The position numbers and the translations under genes are program-made. A stretch of DNA of 37,238 nt from a virus. The stretch is from the IMG/VR virus record IMGVR_UViG_3300033153_009749, positions 1-37,238 of that record; one strand, 5' to 3'. Under the pieces are notes generated by a model, which was not told the origin of the DNA, did no database searches, and worked only from the letters and a program-made list of their open reading frames with translations. Of the stretch, positions 961 to 35,012 are shown in pieces (within the stretch, counting starts at the first letter, position 1; the number at the start of each line of letters is the position of its first letter).

Positions 961-3837
961 ATGGCTTTTGATGCCGGGAGTATTTTCGGAAAATTAAAGC
1001 TGGATAAGTCTGGTTTTACACAAAGCGTAAAAGCTGTAAACAAAGACCAGAAGTCTATGCAGACCTCCGCCTCTAAATCAGGAGTTGCATTTAAGGGCAT
1101 GTGGAAGCAGATGGCTGCCGGTCTTGGAGTAACAGCCGGAATAACTATGGCAGTAAGGGGGCTTATCCGCCAGTTTTCCGATGTGATTGAAAGAGGGCGT
1201 GAGTTTGAGAGAGAATGGGCAAACGTCACGACTATGCTTTCTGTGAGTCAGGGAGAGACGGATAAACTTAAAACTGAACTGCAGAAACTTCCGCCTGTGC
1301 TTGGAGATACGACTGAGCTTGCTAAAGGTATGTATCAAGTCCTCTCAGCCAGTGTTGAGCCGGCTAAAGCCATTGATGTTTTAACCGCATCAGCTAAAGC
1401 AGCTAAAGCTGGGCTTACAGAAACGAATACAGCAGTTGATGCTATAACGACTGTTCTAAACGCATATGGGATGGAAGCAGAAGAAGCTACGAATATCTCT
1501 GACATAATGTTTATGACTGTTAAACGGGGAAAACTTACGTTTGGGGAGCTGGCACATTCTCTTGGAACTGTAGCCCCTGTTGCGGGAACTATAGGAATTA
1601 AATTTGATGAAGTAGCTGCAGCTATAGCCAGCCTTACCCGTCAAGGGATACCTGCTGCGACAGCCACTATGCAATTACGTCAAGTTATGATGGCTGTCTT
1701 AAAACCATCTGAACAGGCAAAAAAGAAGGCAGAAGAATTAGGAATTGAATGGTCTGCAGCGGCTTTAAAAGCCAAAGGTCTTGGTGGGTTCCTTGCTGAA
1801 GTGAAAGAAAAGACAGGCGGAAATTCAGAAGCATTATCAAAACTTGTACCTAATGTTAGAGCTTTAACAGGAGTCATGGCTCTTGCCGGAAGGGCGGCAG
1901 ATGGGTTTGAAAAAGATTTGGGTCTTATGTCAAATGCGGCAGGTTCTACAGATGAGGCTTTTAAAAAGAACATAGATACTTTTGATACCTGGTTAGCAAC
2001 AGCAAAAGTAGTATCCAATAAAGGGAAAGAGGCCTTTTATGAAGGATTAATAAATCCAATAAAAGAAGCTGTAGGAAGTGCCGAGGATTTAGAATTAGCA
2101 AGCATTAAACTCCAAAAAACCATGAAAACCCTTGGTAGTGTTTTTGGAGAAATCGCAGTTTCAATAGGAAGCCTTTCCAAAGGATATGATGGGCTTATAG
2201 AAAGACAAACCAATATTATTATGAAAGCTATTGGTATGGAGACGATTCAAGAGCGAAATAATCGTCTCATGATTGAGGCTAAACATGAAGTTGAGGCTTT
2301 TGTCCAAGAAATGGATAATCTTAATGTTTCTTATGAAGAAGCTAAAAAGCAAAGAGAAAAAGGGAAGGAAAGCTGGGAAAAATGGACATCCTCGATGCGG
2401 ACTGCTAATTCCACCATAGGGCTTGGGAAAGGACTTATAAATGCACTTAAAGAAGGATATAAAGAATATACAGAATCTTTAGAAGATAATAAGGAAGAAA
2501 TAGATAAAACCATAATATCCCATAAAACATTTACAATTGAAACTAAAAACCTAGGAGACGAAACCAAAAAAACGCATGAAAATTTGAGTGATTTATTGAG
2601 TCTTAATATTAGAGATTGGGCTGACGAAGGAGCCGCTGCGATTGATTTTGTCTCACAAGGAATAACTCAATTAGGACAATCCTCTATAGATATGGGTCAG
2701 TTATGGGATTTAAATAAACCTGATGTTCAAGCATGGGCAAATGATAATGTAATCCCTGGATTACAAGATGTAGAGAAAGGGACAGAAGAAGTAATAACAA
2801 ATACGACTTCTCTCTGGAATCAGATGACAGACGGCCTAAAAACAAAATGGGCAACGACTTTTAGTGATATGCTTTCGGGTGCTACTAGCTTTAAAGACGG
2901 AATGGATCAGCTTTGGGAAGGGATGAAAGAGCAGTTTTTTGATATTGTCGGCCAGATGATTGCAAAATGGGTTACTGATTTTTTGGGGAATCTTTTTACT
3001 GAATCAACAAGTATATTCAATGATATTTTTGGGACAATAGGCAATGCGGCTTCTGGGGCAGCTCAGGCAGCAGCAGGAGCTTCCTCATCTCTTTCAGGAG
3101 TCTTTTTAGGTTTGGGTGCAGCAGTCGGGACATTCTTAGGGACTCTTCTTAGTGGCGGTGATGATCTAAGTTATACGAATAAGCTCCTTGAGACAATCGC
3201 ATGGGATCAATCAGCTAAAATGGATAATACCAACGCACAGCTTCATGAAATTAAATTGACCGCATGGAATGTTAACGATAAATTAGGTGCTCTTTATAAC
3301 GCCATGACCACTCAAGGTACTGTTTATGTCAATATGTTTGCATCCGATCCCATTGAACGATTAGGGCAAGATTTTAATCGAGGATTAACAGGTCTGGGAG
3401 GAGACATTGTTACATTAGGCGGGAAAATAGGAAACGGGATCGCTGGATTAGAAAAAGGAATAAGAGATTCTAATAATAAATTTATAAAAAGCATGAAAAA
3501 CTTCAACGAAGCCTCAGGGGCTCAGGGGGCTTCAATGATGGGAGCCAGAGCGATCTCCGCACAGGATGAGGGGACTTGGTATGTTCAAGCTCAAGAGCAA
3601 TTATTTAGAGCCCATAGAGGTGAAATCGTTGATATACGCCATGTGGACTCACAGCAAACAAGAGCAGGCTTTGATAGCGTGGGCAATATAAATGTTCAGA
3701 TAAAGCCTGTGGTCATTCCCAAAAATGATAAATATCTTATAAACTTTACTGTTGAAAAAGTTGAACGATTAAAGAAAGATATTATAAAAGGCAATGTTCC
3801 TATAAACCTCGGAGCTATAGCTGGAGGCAGGTTATGA
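961..3837 (+). CDS. Tail tape measure protein
   Basis: A 958-aa protein sets tail length and is probably threaded out on DNA ejection. Residues about 1-80 form a helical, Lys/Ser-rich start with a hydrophobic stretch (about 48-66). Residues about 85-340 look like the TP901-type tape-measure core (Ala-rich helices with 'LAKGMYQVLSA' and 'TAVDAITTVLNAYG'). Residues about 690-735 hold a Gly/Ala/Leu-rich stretch that could insert in a membrane. At roughly 0.15 nm per residue, the family rule of thumb, the tail would be about 140 nm. It follows the chaperone pair by 4 nt and overlaps the next start by ATGA. Confidence 0.92.
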   Translation: MAFDAGSIFGKLKLDKSGFTQSVKAVNKDQKSMQTSASKSGVAFKGMWKQMAAGLGVTAGITMAVRGLIRQFSDVIERGREFEREWANVTTMLSVSQGETDKLKTELQKLPPVLGDTTELAKGMYQVLSASVEPAKAIDVLTASAKAAKAGLTETNTAVDAITTVLNAYGMEAEEATNISDIMFMTVKRGKLTFGELAHSLGTVAPVAGTIGIKFDEVAAAIASLTRQGIPAATATMQLRQVMMAVLKPSEQAKKKAEELGIEWSAAALKAKGLGGFLAEVKEKTGGNSEALSKLVPNVRALTGVMALAGRAADGFEKDLGLMSNAAGSTDEAFKKNIDTFDTWLATAKVVSNKGKEAFYEGLINPIKEAVGSAEDLELASIKLQKTMKTLGSVFGEIAVSIGSLSKGYDGLIERQTNIIMKAIGMETIQERNNRLMIEAKHEVEAFVQEMDNLNVSYEEAKKQREKGKESWEKWTSSMRTANSTIGLGKGLINALKEGYKEYTESLEDNKEEIDKTIISHKTFTIETKNLGDETKKTHENLSDLLSLNIRDWADEGAAAIDFVSQGITQLGQSSIDMGQLWDLNKPDVQAWANDNVIPGLQDVEKGTEEVITNTTSLWNQMTDGLKTKWATTFSDMLSGATSFKDGMDQLWEGMKEQFFDIVGQMIAKWVTDFLGNLFTESTSIFNDIFGTIGNAASGAAQAAAGASSSLSGVFLGLGAAVGTFLGTLLSGGDDLSYTNKLLETIAWDQSAKMDNTNAQLHEIKLTAWNVNDKLGALYNAMTTQGTVYVNMFASDPIERLGQDFNRGLTGLGGDIVTLGGKIGNGIAGLEKGIRDSNNKFIKSMKNFNEASGAQGASMMGARAISAQDEGTWYVQAQEQLFRAHRGEIVDIRHVDSQQTRAGFDSVGNINVQIKPVVIPKNDKYLINFTVEKVERLKKDIIKGNVPINLGAIAGGRL

Positions 3838-4616
3838 TCGGACAGAATATACGTTTTATGTGGAAGAATTATTTTGATGATGCCTCTTTATCTGTTTCAA
3901 GCTCTGAATCAGGTTTCCCTGTAACTAATACACAACATCGTTGGCATACAAGAACATGGCGGAGCGAGTTAGGGCTTACTGGCGGGCTTTCTGATGCTTA
4001 CATAAAAGCTGATTTGGGATATGCCTATGACATAGAAGCATTTATTATAAAAAATCATAATTTCAGCATGCTTGAAAGCAGTGATGGGCTGAGAATACAG
4101 GCAAACGATACGGATGTCTGGGGGGCTCCTGCTTTAGATGAGGTGATTCCTGTAACATCCGGGCTTATCATTAAATTTTTCTCAAGCACTCAAAATTACC
4201 GTTACTGGCGTATAGTGATGACAGATGCTCTAAACCCTGATGGGTATCTTGAAATAGGACGTATATTTTTAGGTCCTTATTTTGAACCTTATTATAATTT
4301 CCAATCAAAAAGCCCTGCATTTTTAGACCTCTCTGCTGTAAAGCGTTCTACAGGCGGGCAGATATCCAGCGACCAGAAGCCAAGATATAGAGCATGGACT
4401 TATTCCTTCGGGGCAATCAATTCTGATGATTTTGATACGTTTTGGGAGATGTGGCAGGAAGTAGGGCTTTCTAAAGAATATTTTATATGTCAAGACCCGA
4501 TTCATGCGACTCCTTATTTGGTAACATATTATGTACAGAATACAGATAATTGGGGATTTGACCCTTTAATAAAAAACTTTAACAGGCTTACGATTACAAC
4601 AGAGGAGCTTCTATAA
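3834..4616 (+). CDS. Discoidin-like tail protein, paralogue A
   Basis: A 260-aa protein whose start overlaps the tape-measure stop (ATGA), preceded by GGAGG. The middle resembles a discoidin/galactose-binding jelly roll: 'FPVTNTQHRWHTRTW', 'IQANDTDVWGAP', 'QNYRYWRI' and 'IGRIFLG'. The same landmarks recur in the same order in the 343-aa product of 5855-6886, so the two are paralogues. Placed right after the tape measure, it is likely a distal-tail or baseplate-surface component, possibly binding sugar. The fold call is from motif resemblance. Confidence 0.65.
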   Translation: MIGQNIRFMWKNYFDDASLSVSSSESGFPVTNTQHRWHTRTWRSELGLTGGLSDAYIKADLGYAYDIEAFIIKNHNFSMLESSDGLRIQANDTDVWGAPALDEVIPVTSGLIIKFFSSTQNYRYWRIVMTDALNPDGYLEIGRIFLGPYFEPYYNFQSKSPAFLDLSAVKRSTGGQISSDQKPRYRAWTYSFGAINSDDFDTFWEMWQEVGLSKEYFICQDPIHATPYLVTYYVQNTDNWGFDPLIKNFNRLTITTEELL

Positions 4617-5854
4617 TGGCTGCAATAGATGAGAGCCTTTGGTGCTGGGTCGAAAATAATGCTAATAGATATTTGAAGCGATATAATATTGCTACAGGTG
4701 AATGGTCTGATGTGGTGAAACTCCCTGCATTTGATGTTCAAGGAGATTCTATGGGCGTATGGGACGGTGGTTTTTATATCTGGATTTATATTCAAGATGC
4801 GATAGCTGATGTAAATTATGTTAAAAAGAGATTAAATATCCATACGCTTGAGTTATCTGATTATCCGCAAGACCCAGATATAATTGATACGTTTGATTAC
4901 GGGATGATGACGCAGGATTTTGGGGGGAAAATATATGTAACTGCTTATGAGTCATTTAACGTTTGCAGTTTCTCTTATGCAACAAAAGTTTGGGGAATTG
5001 AACCTTCCCCGCCAGCCAATACCAGCACAGACCCAACTATAGCGGCAGTGCCTCCCTGGGCTAATAATCAACCAGGAAACATATTTTTAGCCAGGTCAGT
5101 GGCAGGTTCCGCAGATTTTTATATGCTTGACCCGGTTACAGGAAACTGGACAGTTAAAGCCAATACTGATGGGGCGGATGGGGTTTCGAATGCAAGAGGA
5201 ATGGTTTGGGCTCAAGTGCCTGAGAGCGGGACGCCAGAATACATTTATCTAACTAGAAAAGATGATAAATTTGATAAGTATGATATTAGTGCAAATTCCT
5301 GGTCAAATATTGGTTCTATGCCCACTGATTTAGGTTCGGCGTATGGTAGTAATACCCTCGTCTGGGATGGGGACAGATATTTATTTTGGATAACGGATGA
5401 TGATAATGGGATATACAGGTTTGATTTGATTGACGAAGCCTGGGAAGCGTATGTTACTTTTCCTGGAGATGGGCTGGATTCCCAGCATTCGATAGTTTAC
5501 ACTCCAAGAATTCGATTTATTTTTTGCGACTCAAATGGAATCGAGCTTTATGAGCCTGCTTCTTTAGGCTCTGTTCCAAAAGACAGGACTTCTACTCCTG
5601 TAAAATATTATCTTAAAGCACTGGAAGCTGAAACAGAAGATGTTACCATAGGCTTTGTCTCAGACCATAGAACGGATGCAGAGGACATTCTGGAACTAGC
5701 TCCGGATGTGGCTGGCTCTCCTGGTGCTTGGAGTGATTCAGTCAACTTAGGTTCTTTCACTGAAAATGAATATAAAGCCTTTTGGCTACGGGCTGACCCA
5801 TCAGGAGCGGCTCAAGAGGCAAAAATAGCAAGGTTTAAATTAACGATAGGTTAA
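4616..5854 (+). CDS. Kelch-like beta-propeller tail protein
   Basis: A 412-aa protein, TAATG-coupled to the preceding gene. It carries repeated units ending in the Kelch-type signature of an aromatic/Asp strand followed by W: 'YNIATGEWSDV', 'YMLDPVTGNWTVK', 'YDISANSWSNIGSMP' and 'YRFDLIDEAWEAY'. These are spaced as in a Kelch/galactose-oxidase-like propeller over about residues 15-310. The C-terminal 100 residues are a separate beta domain. No signal peptide is visible. Inserted between two paralogous discoidin-like genes, it probably decorates the tail tip and binds a host surface ligand. I see no catalytic motif. Confidence 0.65.
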   Translation: MAAIDESLWCWVENNANRYLKRYNIATGEWSDVVKLPAFDVQGDSMGVWDGGFYIWIYIQDAIADVNYVKKRLNIHTLELSDYPQDPDIIDTFDYGMMTQDFGGKIYVTAYESFNVCSFSYATKVWGIEPSPPANTSTDPTIAAVPPWANNQPGNIFLARSVAGSADFYMLDPVTGNWTVKANTDGADGVSNARGMVWAQVPESGTPEYIYLTRKDDKFDKYDISANSWSNIGSMPTDLGSAYGSNTLVWDGDRYLFWITDDDNGIYRFDLIDEAWEAYVTFPGDGLDSQHSIVYTPRIRFIFCDSNGIELYEPASLGSVPKDRTSTPVKYYLKALEAETEDVTIGFVSDHRTDAEDILELAPDVAGSPGAWSDSVNLGSFTENEYKAFWLRADPSGAAQEAKIARFKLTIG

Positions 5855-17959: not shown

Positions 17960-18847
17960 ATGCCTGAGGGACGAATGTTAAAAAAACAGATATCAATAAG
18001 CAGAACTTTGCCTGAATTAAAATCAGATTCAGCACGTCTTTTATATACCTGGCTAATTCCCCATTTAGATGTTGAAGGGCGTTTTTCCGCAGATCCTGAT
18101 GTTGTGAAAGGTCATGTAGTTCCACGTCTAAAGATGACAAAGAAAAAAATATGGGATTATCTTCAGGATATGGCCGAAAAAGGGCTTATTATATTATATG
18201 AAGCAGATGGGGATTATTATCTTGAATTCACTGTATTTGAAAAACATCAAATAATAAGGAAAGATAGAGAAGCAGATTCTAAAATACCATCTCCAAAAGA
18301 AGGTTCTATAATAACTTCAGAGTTACTCCAGAGTTACTCCAGAGTTACTCCAGAGAACTCCAGCACAAGTAAAGTAAAAGAAAGTAAAGTAAAATTAAAT
18401 AAAGAAAAGGTCAAAAAAGATTCTTCTCTTTTTGAAATAGAATTTAAAGAATTTTGGGATCTGTATCCACGAAAAACACAAAAGCAAGATGCTAAAGAAA
18501 CTTTTATGGTGCGATGCCGGCAGGGGTTATCTTCTGACATCATCAAGGCTTTAAAGGGATATTTAAAGTTTTTGAAATACCAACGAATTCAAAATAATTT
18601 CGATCAGGCTCCGATGTATCCGAAAACATTCCTTAACAAGAACCGCTGGAAGGAATTTATTAATTTTGAATATAAGGAGCCAGGTCAACGCATTTCAAAG
18701 CAAACCCCAAAAGAACAGAATTACTGGAAAGATAGGGAAAAGAAGATTGCTGGATTGGCTAAAAAGGGCTTAAACGAAAACGAAATACAAATAGAAATAT
18801 CAAAATGGTCTAAAAAATATTGGGAGGAGCAACCAAATGAAAAGTGA
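17960..18847 (+). CDS. Phage replication initiator / replisome organiser-like protein
   Basis: 295 aa from ATG 17960, chosen for AAGGAAGGA. The upstream in-frame ATG 17909 lies inside the leader hairpins without a ribosome site. Residues about 10-85 look like a winged helix ('KKKIWDYLQDMAEKGLI', 'YLEFTVFEKHQ'). A low-complexity Lys/Ser linker follows, then a C-terminal module at about 158-220 beginning 'FKEFWDLYPRK' and ending 'YPKTFLNKNRWKEF'. That module is typical of phage replisome organisers and O-like proteins that load helicase. The linker DNA contains 11-nt iterons, as expected if the origin lies inside the initiator gene. Confidence 0.7.
   Translation: MPEGRMLKKQISISRTLPELKSDSARLLYTWLIPHLDVEGRFSADPDVVKGHVVPRLKMTKKKIWDYLQDMAEKGLIILYEADGDYYLEFTVFEKHQIIRKDREADSKIPSPKEGSIITSELLQSYSRVTPENSSTSKVKESKVKLNKEKVKKDSSLFEIEFKEFWDLYPRKTQKQDAKETFMVRCRQGLSSDIIKALKGYLKFLKYQRIQNNFDQAPMYPKTFLNKNRWKEFINFEYKEPGQRISKQTPKEQNYWKDREKKIAGLAKKGLNENEIQIEISKWSKKYWEEQPNEK
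18318..18363 (+). repeat. 11-nt iterons in the replication gene
   Basis: CAGAGTTACTC occurs three times head to tail (18318-18328, 18329-18339, 18340-18350), then a degenerate copy CAGAGAACTC (18351-18360). The unit is not a multiple of three, so each copy is read in a different frame; the constraint is on DNA, not protein. A tract of A-rich AGTAAAGTAAAA-type repeats follows at about 18366-18412. Confidence 0.75.
18318..18412. other. Candidate replication origin
   Basis: Three tandem iterons and an adjoining AT-rich, A-skewed stretch lie within the initiator coding sequence. This is the lambda-O style arrangement of initiator-binding repeats beside a DNA unwinding element. Confidence 0.5.
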
Positions 18848-19311: not shown

Positions 19312-20034
19312 ATGAAGATACAAAATATGTTTTTTATGGACGAAAGGATTAATAATTCTATTAAAATCCTAAAAACATATGAACCAAAAGAAGGTTATTA
19401 CTTAGCATTTTCCGGAGGCAAGGATTCTGTTGTTTTATATGACTTAGCCAAAAAATCGCGAGTAAAATTTGATGCACATTACCAGATTACAACAGCCGAT
19501 CCGCCGGAAGTTGTAAGGTTTATTAGAGATTTTTACCCCTTTGTGGCTATGGAAAAGCCGAAAATTACAATGTGGAAATTAATCCCTAAAAAACTTATGC
19601 CCCCAACGAGGAAGGTTCGTTATTGTTGCGAAAAGCTAAAAGAGAGAGGTGGGGAAGGAAGGATAATATTAACCGGCGTAAAAAGATCAGATTCCAGGAA
19701 TCGTAAAGATCGTCATGTAAAAGTATGTAGAGAGAGGGGGAAAATTATAATTAATCCATTATTAGATTGGTGTGATGATGAGATATGGAGTTATATAAGA
19801 AATAATAAATTGCCATATTGTTCCTTGTATGATAATGGGTTCAAGAGGTTAGGGTGTATAGGATGCCCACTTGCAAGTATCAAGCAAAGAGAAAAAGAAT
19901 TCAGACTATATCCAAAATACAAGCAAGTATATTTACGGGCGTTTGAAAACATGCTTAAAGAAAGAAAAAGACAAGGAAAAAAAACAAAATGGAAAACATC
20001 AGAAGAAGTAATGAGATGGTGGATGTCTCAATAG
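19312..20034 (+). CDS. PP-loop ATPase of the PAPS/APS reductase family
   Basis: A 240-aa protein with the PP-loop 'FSGGKDS' (33-39), C105-C106 ('RYCCEKLKE'), 'ITGVKR'-type strand ('LTGVKRSDSRN', 120-130) and C182-x2-C185 ('GCIGCPLA'). CC plus CxxC is the 4Fe-4S ligand set of APS-type reductases and DndC-like relatives. Phage copies are common but their substrate is unsettled: sulfur assimilation, or sulfur transfer to nucleic acid. It lacks the C-terminal redox-Cys tail of canonical reductases. The gene is flanked by exact 17-nt repeats, so it looks like a recently inserted moron. Confidence 0.85.
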   Translation: MKIQNMFFMDERINNSIKILKTYEPKEGYYLAFSGGKDSVVLYDLAKKSRVKFDAHYQITTADPPEVVRFIRDFYPFVAMEKPKITMWKLIPKKLMPPTRKVRYCCEKLKERGGEGRIILTGVKRSDSRNRKDRHVKVCRERGKIIINPLLDWCDDEIWSYIRNNKLPYCSLYDNGFKRLGCIGCPLASIKQREKEFRLYPKYKQVYLRAFENMLKERKRQGKKTKWKTSEEVMRWWMSQ

Positions 20035-23667: not shown

Positions 23668-24135
23668 ATGGAATATAAAACTACGAAAAAGTATTCTAAA
23701 AAAGTCATTGATGAAATTTTTAGGATACACAAGGAAAAAGGTTTGACCGCTGAGAATTTATTAAAAGAGGCAAAAAAGAAAAGCAATCCTTTGCATTCAT
23801 TATTCAGATGGGATGACAAAGAAGCTGCTTATTTATGGAGACTTCAACAGGCAAGAGTGATTATCAATGAAGTCAAAATCATTGTCGAAGACAAAGAATA
23901 TTATGCTTTTGAAAATGTTCGTGTAGAAATCAAGGATGGTAAGGGACAAAGGGAATACAAATTAAGAGATGAGATTTTAAAAGATGATTCCCTAAGGACG
24001 CAGGTAGTAGAATCAGCTTATAATCAGCTTCTATATTGGAAATCCAAGTATGAGGATTATAAAGAATTTGAGCCTGTTTTTGAGGCTATTAAGAAAATAG
24101 GTGATAATTTGAATGCGAAAGAAAGTCGCACATAA
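23668..24135 (+). CDS. Conserved phage protein, unknown
   Basis: A 155-aa protein behind AAGGAGG. The segment 'SNPLHSLFRWDDKEAAYLWR' (about 39-58) followed by 'QARVIINEV' is a pattern I recognise from many hypothetical phage proteins, with no known function. Helical and charged. It is followed directly by the first GG-pentamer array. Confidence 0.65.
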   Translation: MEYKTTKKYSKKVIDEIFRIHKEKGLTAENLLKEAKKKSNPLHSLFRWDDKEAAYLWRLQQARVIINEVKIIVEDKEYYAFENVRVEIKDGKGQREYKLRDEILKDDSLRTQVVESAYNQLLYWKSKYEDYKEFEPVFEAIKKIGDNLNAKESRT

Positions 24136-24147
24136 GAAGTGATACGA

Positions 24148-24219
24148 GGCAAGGTATGGCAAGGTTTGGCTCGGCGAGGTCTGGCATGGCTAGGCGAGTC
24201 GTGGCAAAGCAAGGCAAGG
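24148..24219 (+). repeat. GG-pentamer array 1
   Basis: Fourteen 5-nt units plus a closing GG lie on an unbroken 5-nt grid. Of the 15 grid positions, 13 begin GG (exceptions GT at 24198 and AG at 24208), and in all 14 full units position 3 is C or T. Positions 4-5 vary freely. It lies between a stop codon and a ribosome site, is untranslated, and is far richer in G than its surroundings. Confidence 0.9.
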
Positions 24220-24238
24220 AAATTAAAAGGAGAAACAA

Positions 24239-24823
24239 ATGAAAACAAGAAGCATTAACTTAAAACCAATCCAGACGGAAGTTTTAAAATTAACAATTAA
24301 GGGCAAAACTCCATATATGCCTGAACCTATGGATGAAGAAGTCCTTGAAAGATATAACAAAATCAAATCAAAGCAAAGCTATAAAAAAGATGATGTCCCA
24401 GAAGAAGAGAAAGTCAAAGCTAAATATTATTACACAGAAGACGGGAAAAAAGGGATTCCATCAAGGGCGATTTTTCAGGCGATGGTTCGGGCTTCAAGCT
24501 ATTTGATTGAGAAAAAAGATGGTGGCATGAGAAATGTCAAAGAAGGCGTTCTTATTAAAGGTGGAATACTTCCGTTGAAATATTCAAAAGAAGAAGTATT
24601 GACTCACTGGGGAAGGACTTCAGGTCGAAACAGATCACCTAGAAAAATAATGAGAAATGCTTTTTATGATTGGTCGGTAGATGTTGAAATTGAATATAAT
24701 AAAGAGCAATTATCAGCAGAGCAGATTGTTAATATTCTTAATTGGGCTGGATTTCATATTGGAGTAGGTGCTTTTAGAAAAGAGAAAACAGGTAATTTTG
24801 GCTTATTTGAAGTGAAGATATAA
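24239..24823 (+). CDS. Phage protein bracketed by the pentamer arrays, unknown
   Basis: A 194-aa protein behind AAAAGGAG. Residues about 1-100 include 'KGKTPYMPEPMDEEVLERY' and 'GIPSRAIFQAMVRAS'. The C-terminus has 'WSVDVEIEYN', 'LSAEQIVNILNWAGFHIGVG' and then 'GNFGLFEV'. The ending, a helix then a Gly-rich G-x-G...G-x-F-G loop, is recurrent in hypothetical phage proteins and vaguely recalls RAMP/ferredoxin-like folds, but I cannot assign a function. It is the only gene between the two arrays. Confidence 0.75.
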   Translation: MKTRSINLKPIQTEVLKLTIKGKTPYMPEPMDEEVLERYNKIKSKQSYKKDDVPEEEKVKAKYYYTEDGKKGIPSRAIFQAMVRASSYLIEKKDGGMRNVKEGVLIKGGILPLKYSKEEVLTHWGRTSGRNRSPRKIMRNAFYDWSVDVEIEYNKEQLSAEQIVNILNWAGFHIGVGAFRKEKTGNFGLFEVKI

Positions 24824-24826
24824 AAA

Positions 24827-24898
24827 GGCGAGGTGCGGTGCGGCGCGACAGGGCAAGGCAAGGCGAGGCCTGGCGAGACGAGGCAAAGCAAGGCAAGG
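24827..24898 (+). repeat. GG-pentamer array 2
   Basis: The same design and exactly the same length (72 nt, 14 units plus GG) as array 1. Grid exceptions are GA at 24847, GA at 24877 and AG at 24887. The last five units match array 1 closely (GGCGA, G-CG-, GGCAA, AGCAA, GGCAA, GG), including the odd AGCAA unit. GTTTAAAC, an 8-bp palindrome, follows at 24902-24909. Confidence 0.9.
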
Positions 24899-24924
24899 AG
24901 AGTTTAAACTGAAAGGAAAACAAA

Positions 24925-25218
24925 ATGAAAAAACCTGATTTATTAAAACTAGCATCAAAGTATACAAAACTAGAGAAAAAGAAAGAGGATAAAAAAGGTG
25001 TTTTATATTTAGGTTTATGTCCATTTCATGAAGAAAAAGAACCATCTTTCACTATATGGGTATTTAAAGATGGATATCAGCTTTATCATTGTTTTGGCTG
25101 TGGTGCTGGTGGCGATGCGATTGTTTTCCAAAAAGAGATTGAGGCTAAAAAGCGAAATAAAAACTTCAAACCAAAGAGCAATGCAAAGGTATTTGAATTT
25201 AAAATAAAGGGAAAATAA
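24925..25218 (+). CDS. Stand-alone DnaG-type (CHC2) zinc-finger protein
   Basis: A 97-aa protein with the primase zinc-binding signature: '[12 protein letters not shown]' (C32, H35) and '[13 protein letters not shown]' (C56, C59). Full primases continue into a TOPRIM catalytic domain; here the frame ends about 40 basic residues after the finger. It may guide a host primase or act as a ssDNA-binding accessory. No separate TOPRIM gene is seen in the window. Ribosome site AAAGGAAAA. Confidence 0.85.
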
Positions 25219-25608
25219 ATGGCAAAGATAAACTGTTATGTGATAACATGCTCATCTGATAATGAAATGGACATCCGGTCTTTATATGTCTGGGGTGAGT
25301 GGGGTTCGGCAAGGTGGTTACCCACTACGAAAAAAGAAGCACAACGCAGGATTGAGGAGTGCAGGAAGAAAAACGCTTGCGAATTTTGCGATGCTCAAAT
25401 CCATAAAATTTACATAGAGAGAAATAAAAATACCTATATGCAGGAGATGTCAAAAAAGAATGTGCCTCATAAAAAAGGCAGAAAGTCAGCAACAAGAGTA
25501 AGAAAGCGATGTGAGTTCTGCGGGAAAATATTCTATATACTTCCTTCCCAGGATCACCATAGGAAATATTGTTCTAGAGAATGTTTTGCTAAGGTAAGAA
25601 AAAAATAA
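25219..25608 (+). CDS. Zinc-finger protein, unknown
   Basis: A 129-aa protein directly following the primase finger gene. 'CEFC' at 54-57 and a C-terminal finger C98-x2-C101 ... C118-x3-C122 ('CEFCGK' / 'KYCSREC'), in a strongly basic context, suggest nucleic-acid binding. The 111-nt AT-rich gap after it (25609-25719) shows no clear terminator or strong promoter. Confidence 0.65.
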   Translation: MAKINCYVITCSSDNEMDIRSLYVWGEWGSARWLPTTKKEAQRRIEECRKKNACEFCDAQIHKIYIERNKNTYMQEMSKKNVPHKKGRKSATRVRKRCEFCGKIFYILPSQDHHRKYCSRECFAKVRKK

Positions 25609-33587: not shown

Positions 33588-35012
33588 ATGATGTCTAAAA
33601 TAACGACTAGAGATAAAAGAGTCCAGGAGATAATTAACCGCAGGAATCTTATAAACCAGCAACAGACTGCCTGGGCTGAAATAAAACGAATCGGCAATAT
33701 TACACACAAGACAACTGGTGTGGGATACAGGCGGTATATTCCACCTGAAGACCGCCTTTTGTCCTCTGAGCTTAAAGATGGGGAATGGAAAGGCCAGCGG
33801 TGTTTTATCATAGGCGGAGGCTCTAGTTTAAAGGATTTTGATTTTTCAAGGCTGAAGAATGAGCTTACTATTGGTATTAACAGAGCGTATGAGAAGATAG
33901 ACTGCACTATTAATTTTGCTATGGATAAGAGATTTTTTAACTGGCTTTATCAAGGGCGGTTAGGTGAAGAAGCTAAAGAGAGATGGGACAAATACAGAGG
34001 TTATAAAGTATGGATAAACGCTTATGGGTATAAATACCCGGAAGATATTTTTATGGTGCCTAGTATAGGGAACGATGGATTTTCCTGGTCTTTAAAAGAT
34101 GGTCTGTCAACTGGCAAGGCTAATCCGATTTATCTTTTAGGATATGACATGAGGGGAAAGAACGGAAAGCAGTCCTGGTGGCATAAAGGTTATCCTGAAC
34201 CGCAGGGAGAGAACGTCTATAAATCATTTATAAATAGGTTTGAGAAAATAGCCCCTGAGCTTAAAAAAAGAGGAATTAAAGTTATAAACCTTAATCCTCA
34301 TTCAGCACTTAAATGTTTTGAGTTTGATAAATTCAATAATATAGAGAAAATCAAACATCCGGTTATCATATCATTTTACACAACAGAAACGGGCTATGAA
34401 AAGGAAATAGAAAGGCTTAATGATTCCTTAAGACGCTTTAACCTTGAACATAAAACATACAGCTTTGAACCTACGGGAACATGGAGAGAAAATCTTAATT
34501 ACAAATCAAAGACTATCCTTATGGCACTGGATGAATTTAAAGACCGGGATATCGTATTTGTTGATGCAGACGCCATAATAAAACGCTCTCCATTTCTTTT
34601 TACAAAGCTTTCGGAGAGAGAAGAGCATCATATAGCAGCTCATTTTTATGAATATTCCCCTCGTTCTGGGGATGCGAACGAACTTTTAAGCGGCACGCTT
34701 TGGATCCGAAACTCTGCAAAAGGGCGTAAACTCATAAAAACATGGCATAATATAGCACTTAAAAAATCAAACGTAAGGCATCAAAAATGTTTAAAATTGG
34801 CTATGATCGAAATGATTAAAAAGGGACAGCTTAAAAAAAGCGATATATATAAACTCCCGTTTTCTTATACCTGTATTTGGGATTATCCGCAGGCTAAAAC
34901 ATGCGAGCCCGTAATCATGCATTATCAGGCATCCCGAAAACTTAGAAAAGAGGTAGGCTATGGCATAAACCTTATAAAGCCGAATCAGATAGATAGGACG
35001 GTGGAAATATGA
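33588..35012 (+). CDS. Two-domain sugar-modification protein (DUF115-like plus GT-A)
   Basis: A 474-aa protein. The N-terminal half contains 'CFIIGGGSSLKDFDF' (72-86) and 'IGINRAY', the DUF115/MptE-like and sialyltransferase-like loop, with 'IYLLGYDMRG' further on. The C-terminal half, from about 257, is a glycosyltransferase-A-like domain with 'DIVFVDADAIIKRSP' (DAD at 326-328) as metal/nucleotide-sugar site. ATG 33588 or 33591 has only a weak GGAA site, so it may be translated poorly. It probably transfers sugar onto a virion or host-surface target. ATGA overlap with the next gene. Confidence 0.65.
   Translation: MMSKITTRDKRVQEIINRRNLINQQQTAWAEIKRIGNITHKTTGVGYRRYIPPEDRLLSSELKDGEWKGQRCFIIGGGSSLKDFDFSRLKNELTIGINRAYEKIDCTINFAMDKRFFNWLYQGRLGEEAKERWDKYRGYKVWINAYGYKYPEDIFMVPSIGNDGFSWSLKDGLSTGKANPIYLLGYDMRGKNGKQSWWHKGYPEPQGENVYKSFINRFEKIAPELKKRGIKVINLNPHSALKCFEFDKFNNIEKIKHPVIISFYTTETGYEKEIERLNDSLRRFNLEHKTYSFEPTGTWRENLNYKSKTILMALDEFKDRDIVFVDADAIIKRSPFLFTKLSEREEHHIAAHFYEYSPRSGDANELLSGTLWIRNSAKGRKLIKTWHNIALKKSNVRHQKCLKLAMIEMIKKGQLKKSDIYKLPFSYTCIWDYPQAKTCEPVIMHYQASRKLRKEVGYGINLIKPNQIDRTVEI

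Follow-up and report, generated by a model that had tools for sequence, protein, structure and literature searches.

Two GG-gridded arrays flanking a vipr homologue in a viral genome: a further VIPR locus with a probable accessory protein of a different family

The closest described system is VIPR (Viral Interference Programmable Repeat), a CRISPR-like system of RNA-guided DNA recognition that viruses appear to direct at competing viruses. It is reported in a 2026 preprint (PMC13142463), which came up in the literature on phage pentanucleotide repeats. It is built on a ~20-kDa phage RAMP protein, Vipr, whose gene is flanked by vrRNAs of 9-16 YNNGG repeats. The NN letters of the vrRNA pair with DNA and one base is skipped between pairs. 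The vrRNA is expressed and bound by Vipr, the complex represses its target, and the targets lie mostly in genes of rival viruses; this design was tested experimentally. The repeats are followed by an invariable 3' tail, which is structured in the SUSP1 clade. The systems also carry accessory genes (vap1-6), and VIPR is proposed to predate CRISPR (PMC13142463).

The window analyzed here is the whole 37,238-nt stretch of a viral record (IMGVR_UViG_3300033153_009749), which also encodes terminase, portal-like and tail proteins. It contains a locus with the order vap, vrRNA 1, vipr and vrRNA 2, which is very probably a virus-encoded VIPR that guides the blocking of rival-virus genes. VIPR is already known from the preprint, and the locus can be placed with high confidence as a further member. 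This analysis supports the placement through Vipr homology, the RAMP fold, the form, position, strand and co-occurrence of the arrays, the rewriting of the guide letters and their codon-like NN statistics. From the published system (PMC13142463) would carry over that the arrays are transcribed and form an RNP, that one base is skipped, that the target is repressed and that viruses compete in this way.

Both arrays, vrRNA 1 (24145-24222, + strand) and vrRNA 2 (24827-24901, + strand), sit after a stop codon and ahead of the next ribosome-binding site, and the 194-aa gene is the only one they bracket. Counted from 24148, array 1 reads GGCAA GGTAT GGCAA GGTTT GGCTC GGCGA GGTCT GGCAT GGCTA GGCGA GTCGT GGCAA AGCAA GGCAA GGAAA; in the YNNGG register of the preprint it begins one unit earlier, with C-GA at 24145. 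Its variable NN letters are GA AA AT AA TT TC GA CT AT TA GA GT, followed by a constant 3' end. Counted from 24827, array 2 reads GGCGA GGTGC GGTGC GGCGC GACAG GGCAA GGCAA GGCGA GGCCT GGCGA GACGA GGCAA AGCAA GGCAA GGAGA, with the variable letters GA GC GC GC AG AA AA GA CT GA GA and then its own constant end. A sequence-only reading of the window had reported GG at 13/15 and 12/15 positions of a 5-nt grid, with C or T at position 3 in 28/28 full units of the two arrays, and these counts were reproduced exactly. The best 15-unit score elsewhere in the window is 6 on the + strand and 5 on the - strand, and the maximum in 200 dinucleotide shuffles of the window is 9. Internal shuffling reached the observed phase in 0/2000 trials for each array. 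The GC content is 0.59 in array 1 and 0.69 in array 2, compared with 0.39 in the whole window; the GC contrast, the placement between stop and ribosome site and the single bracketed gene also stand as first described. Each array has about 15 tandem YNNGG units with hypervariable NN letters, within the published range, and occupies an intergenic gap beside vipr in a viral genome. Together with the grid scores, the published vrRNA description and the presence of both arrays with other letters in the sister phage L129 (record 3300033148_007061, 42,951 bases), this makes both arrays almost certainly VIPR guide-RNA genes. The gene directly 3' of array 2 (24925-25218; 97 aa), which encodes a CHC2 zinc finger of the DnaG type, is missing from L129, where array 2 runs straight into the homologue of the gene at 25219.

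The constant 3' end of array 1, GGCAAAGCAAGGCAAGGAAA (24203-24222, + strand), contains the off-pattern unit AGCAA and is identical in array 1 of L129. The constant end of array 2, GGCAAAGCAAGGCAAGGAGA (24882-24901, + strand), shares GGCAAAGCAAGGCAAGGA with it; this sequence closes both arrays and confirms the common ending, AGCAA included, that had been claimed for them. Array 2 of L129 keeps the constant end only in part and reads GACAAGGCACGGGAA. The sequence GGCAAAGCAAGGCAAGG also terminates arrays beside distant vipr genes in L146, L148, L150, L153 and L154. In SUSP1, L126-L128 and L135 the vrRNAs are followed by GGTAGTTA and then by a short predicted hairpin, whose stem stays paired in both L126 and L135 with different letters; the shuffle z-scores of all these short hairpins are weak, and therefore the hairpin tail is a point to test rather than a claim.

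The bracketed gene (24239-24823, + strand) encodes a 194-aa single-domain RAMP protein with a C-terminal glycine-rich loop, GVGAFRKEKTGNFGLFEV. The protein belongs to PHROG 4652, which is listed there as function unknown, and PADLOC and Pfam have no model for Vipr or for the accessory protein. A family profile (A2) matches PDB chain 36pp_D, 'SUSP1 Vipr protein', with E=8.8e-44. The narrower window-clade profile (A1) gives E=3.9e-5 and the window protein as a single sequence gives E=9.3e-4, and hhalign gives 95% probability. An AlphaFold model (pLDDT 85.8, pTM 0.81) has a predicted RRM core and G-loop, and its top PDB matches in a fold search are Csm3/Cas7/Cmr-type RAMPs (best E=1.4e-6). The thumb is poorly resolved in this model because residues 31-60 are of low confidence. 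The bracketed gene almost certainly encodes Vipr, the protein that carries the guides, which agrees with the earlier pointer to its product as a candidate reader of the grid; a guide function had not been part of that reading.

The predicted RAMP/RRM fold and the glycine-rich loop are shared with class 1 CRISPR RAMPs (Cas7/Csm3 of types III-A and VII; fold-search E values of 1e-6 to 1e-4), but the sequence identity to the window Vipr is ~10-16%. The window also differs in its guide, where invariant letters recur at 5-nt intervals and take the place of a contiguous spacer, and it is without other cas effector genes. A tandem-repeat scan of the window showed no CRISPR-type repeats. The locus does not belong to CRISPR-Cas, and PADLOC on six window proteins flags only a Cas4-like exonuclease of a common phage type (14806-15993). 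This protein is a PD-(D/E)XK exonuclease related to Cas4 and to RecE-type phage exonucleases.

IMG/VR was scanned for (GGYNN)x8 by DNA pattern alone, which returned at least 120 stretches, and an HMM seeded with the window protein plus three close relatives was run on the listed loci. The protein played no part in choosing these loci, so the link between array and vipr is independent. Among the matches listed, 85/120 loci contain a vipr homologue, and 224 of the 231 arrays within 2 kb of one lie on the vipr strand, at a median distance of 232 nt. The arrays in these loci resemble those of the window, a contig often has more than one, and their last letters are hypervariable. On the SUSP1 genome the family profile finds ALH47069.1 with E=1.9e-46 (window-clade seed, 6.2e-8); one array precedes the gene and others follow it, in agreement with the preprint. 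The sequence-only reading had asked whether such arrays flank one gene family, and arrays found by pattern do sit beside homologues of the same gene in these 85 listed loci. Homologous loci that lack arrays or have lost the phase, which it named as counter-evidence, were not found; L129 and the relatives with 68-69% identity keep arrays and phase. The other 35/120 listed loci (e.g. L025, L019, L033) have no vipr homologue in the fetched stretch; some of these are simple repeats or short fragments, and others may hold diverged Vipr types.

The gene upstream of vrRNA 1 (23668-24135, + strand) encodes a 155-aa protein of PHROG 15946 and is probably the vap of this locus, judging from its neighborhood beside vipr. 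The fetched loci contain 32 homologues, almost every one next to vipr (about 30 loci, among the matches listed), and six close relatives (L126-L129, L134 and L135) all carry it in the same gene order. Gp41 of Gordonia phage UmaThurman is also a homologue. On the Vipr tree the accessory-gene label requires 4 changes compared with 24.1 in shuffles, and its carriers all fall in one group of 33 rows away from SUSP1 (support 98/99; bootstrap not fully settled). Profile comparison finds the family unrelated to the SUSP1 neighbor ALH47068.1. The model of the 155-aa protein (pLDDT 93) has no match among PDB folds.

In most of the blocks that align, the sister phage L129 and the window are ~90-95% identical. 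L129 has both arrays in the same places and phase, with near-identical flanks (93% identity upstream of array 1) and different NN letters; its array 1 is two units shorter and still in phase. When array 1 was aligned from the 3' end and counted from the unit lists with the constant units left out, the GG letters were kept at 16/18 positions and the NN letters at 4/18, an NN agreement close to random. The scaffold is conserved between these sister phages and the guide is not, as expected from the earlier claim that spacing is kept while letters change. A similar pattern is seen in L126/127 and L128 (68% Vipr identity), which have one downstream array each with two differing bases between them, both NN. 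Because the NN letters are exchanged and the arrays otherwise keep their place, their phase and, in array 1, their end, some mechanism might actively write new guide letters onto the fixed grid, but this is unlikely; recombination with the arrays of other phages is the ordinary alternative. Upstream of vipr in L127, a large protein (3091-5445) carries an intein splicing domain.

The NN letters also resemble coding sequence. In 3157 units beside vipr homologues (among the matches listed; last three units of each array trimmed), NN usage correlates with codon positions 1-2 when read in sense (r=0.77), compared with r between -0.18 and 0.43 for other choices of phase and strand. These statistics are support and not proof, because the base composition of the loci may contribute. 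Array 1 decodes to [DE][KN][IM][KN][FL]S[DE]L[IM]Y[DE]V, in which Y holds for a pyrimidine as third base. Array 2 decodes to [DE]AAA[RS][KN][KN][DE]L[DE][DE]. Both are plausible protein stretches, in line with the wobble-skipping rule of PMC13142463.

Searches for the targets gave no convincing match. The array-2 11-unit and array-1 10-unit target patterns had no match in IMG/VR, and the array-1 11-unit pattern had none in GTDB contigs. Partial 18-nt cores of both guides gave 8 matches in all, which is near the chance number; none of these (L161 and L176-L178 for array 1, L162-L165 for array 2) is convincing beyond the core. In L162 a prohead-protease-like gene matches in frame at 20/22, but the array-2 core decodes to a common charged-helix motif. 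In L178, which has the same metagenome number as L129, a stretch within a portal-like phage gene (2339-2364, - strand) matches at 18/18 in frame over array-1 units 1-9 and then at 1/6, and the other guides have no clear match in that record. Array 1 with 3 mismatches had 10 matches in 279 DPANN genomes, fewer than the reversed control, and the guides did not beat shuffled-unit guides against the window, the sister phage and all loci. The rival viruses of the window's host are probably not sampled.

The lack of near-full-length target matches in IMG/VR or GTDB contigs would also fit arrays that serve as mRNA or DNA binding sites of the 24239 protein and regulate its own operon without any guide function, in the manner of TRAP. 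TRAP acts on NAG repeats, with one protein per 5 nt. The 5-nt spacing would suit this reading, as would the position of the arrays: the start codon of vipr comes 19 nt after the end of array 1, and array 2 begins 4 nt after the stop. However, such sites should have letters that are conserved between sister phages, whereas here NN is replaced and GG is kept, and the NN letters follow codon usage. Listed loci have up to 11 arrays (among the matches listed), often far from a start codon. The bracketed protein is also a RAMP protein, Vipr, and the repeats are GGYNN rather than NAG, so it is not a TRAP; own-operon regulation is therefore very unlikely. The sequence-only reading had also offered stacked two-tetrad G-quadruplexes, with GG runs and 3-nt loops acting as structural signals in RNA or DNA. 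The sequence GGNNNGGNNNGGNNNGG is formally a two-tetrad motif and occurs in 10 overlapping copies in the window compared with 0.73 expected, but a quadruplex needs neither an exact 5-nt grid over 15 units nor a pyrimidine at position 3, and does not account for hypervariable codon-like NN letters or the tie to one protein family. An RNA scaffold for a RAMP protein explains the grid and the NN letters behave like guide letters, so quadruplexes are highly improbable. Hardly any weight is left for the third proposal, that the arrays are recombination sites for exchanging the bracketed gene as a cassette: they do flank one gene with an end in common, and vap-vipr pairs occur in very different elements, but L129 keeps the gene (91% protein identity) and changes the array letters, the reverse of the prediction, and in many relatives only one side of the gene carries arrays (59 downstream only and 9 upstream only, compared with 17 on both sides, among the matches listed).

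Under the VIPR reading, each array would be transcribed as a short guide RNA along which Vipr subunits line up, probably one per 5-nt YNNGG unit. Vipr would hold the fixed GGY and present the two variable letters. The dinucleotides would pair with one strand of DNA with one target base skipped between pairs, and the bound complex, assisted by vap, would block transcription of a gene of the competing virus.

The window locus is similar to the VIPR of Escherichia phage SUSP1 (Vipr, ALH47069.1; PDB 36pp) in its virus-encoded RAMP protein of ~195 aa, its 9-16 GGYNN repeats both up- and downstream of vipr on the same strand, and a constant end after the variable units. It differs in that its accessory protein is of another family without a match to ALH47068.1, its Vipr is on a separate branch of the Vipr tree, and it has two arrays compared with four in SUSP1. 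No hairpin was predicted after the window arrays, which have the constant GGCAAGG end, unlike the tails of SUSP1, L126 and L135. UmaThurman (gp39 Vipr, gp41 accessory) has the same accessory family and falls in the same half of the Vipr tree, but its accessory gene is downstream of vipr instead of upstream, and a long continuous array cluster with high GC lies just downstream of its vipr.

In GTDB contigs, close relatives were found only in L134 (69%, MAG labelled Lokiarchaeota) and L135 (68%, MAG labelled Woesearchaeota), for which binning errors are possible. Both contigs encode this gene pair and an integrase and have at least one array, with the VIPR relatives (L134:1416-2127 and L135:5202-6661) beside the integrase genes. 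The L135 arrays have stretches of units in common, as if duplicated. The terminase and DNA methylase of the window have archaeal-virus relatives (a Methanosarcinales virus; Methanobacterium virus Drs3). BLAST of the region against named phages and an Rfam scan of the window gave no match. Elsewhere in the window, 4.6 copies of a partly palindromic 11-nt repeat, ACTCCAGAGTT, are followed by AAGTA-type repeats (18314-18409) and are possible iterons or a replication origin. For a PAPS-reductase-family protein (19312-20034), PADLOC additionally reports a match to its model of BrxP, a BREX-associated protein, and a protein within the structural gene region (33588-35012) has sialyltransferase-like and nucleotide-sugar-transferase-like regions.

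The window locus is a compact VIPR from a lineage far from the experimentally tested one, with a different accessory protein and with relatives in contigs binned as archaea. Its sister phage shows the replacement of guides on a fixed scaffold. The units from many viruses add independent statistical support for a correspondence of the guide letters to the first two codon positions.
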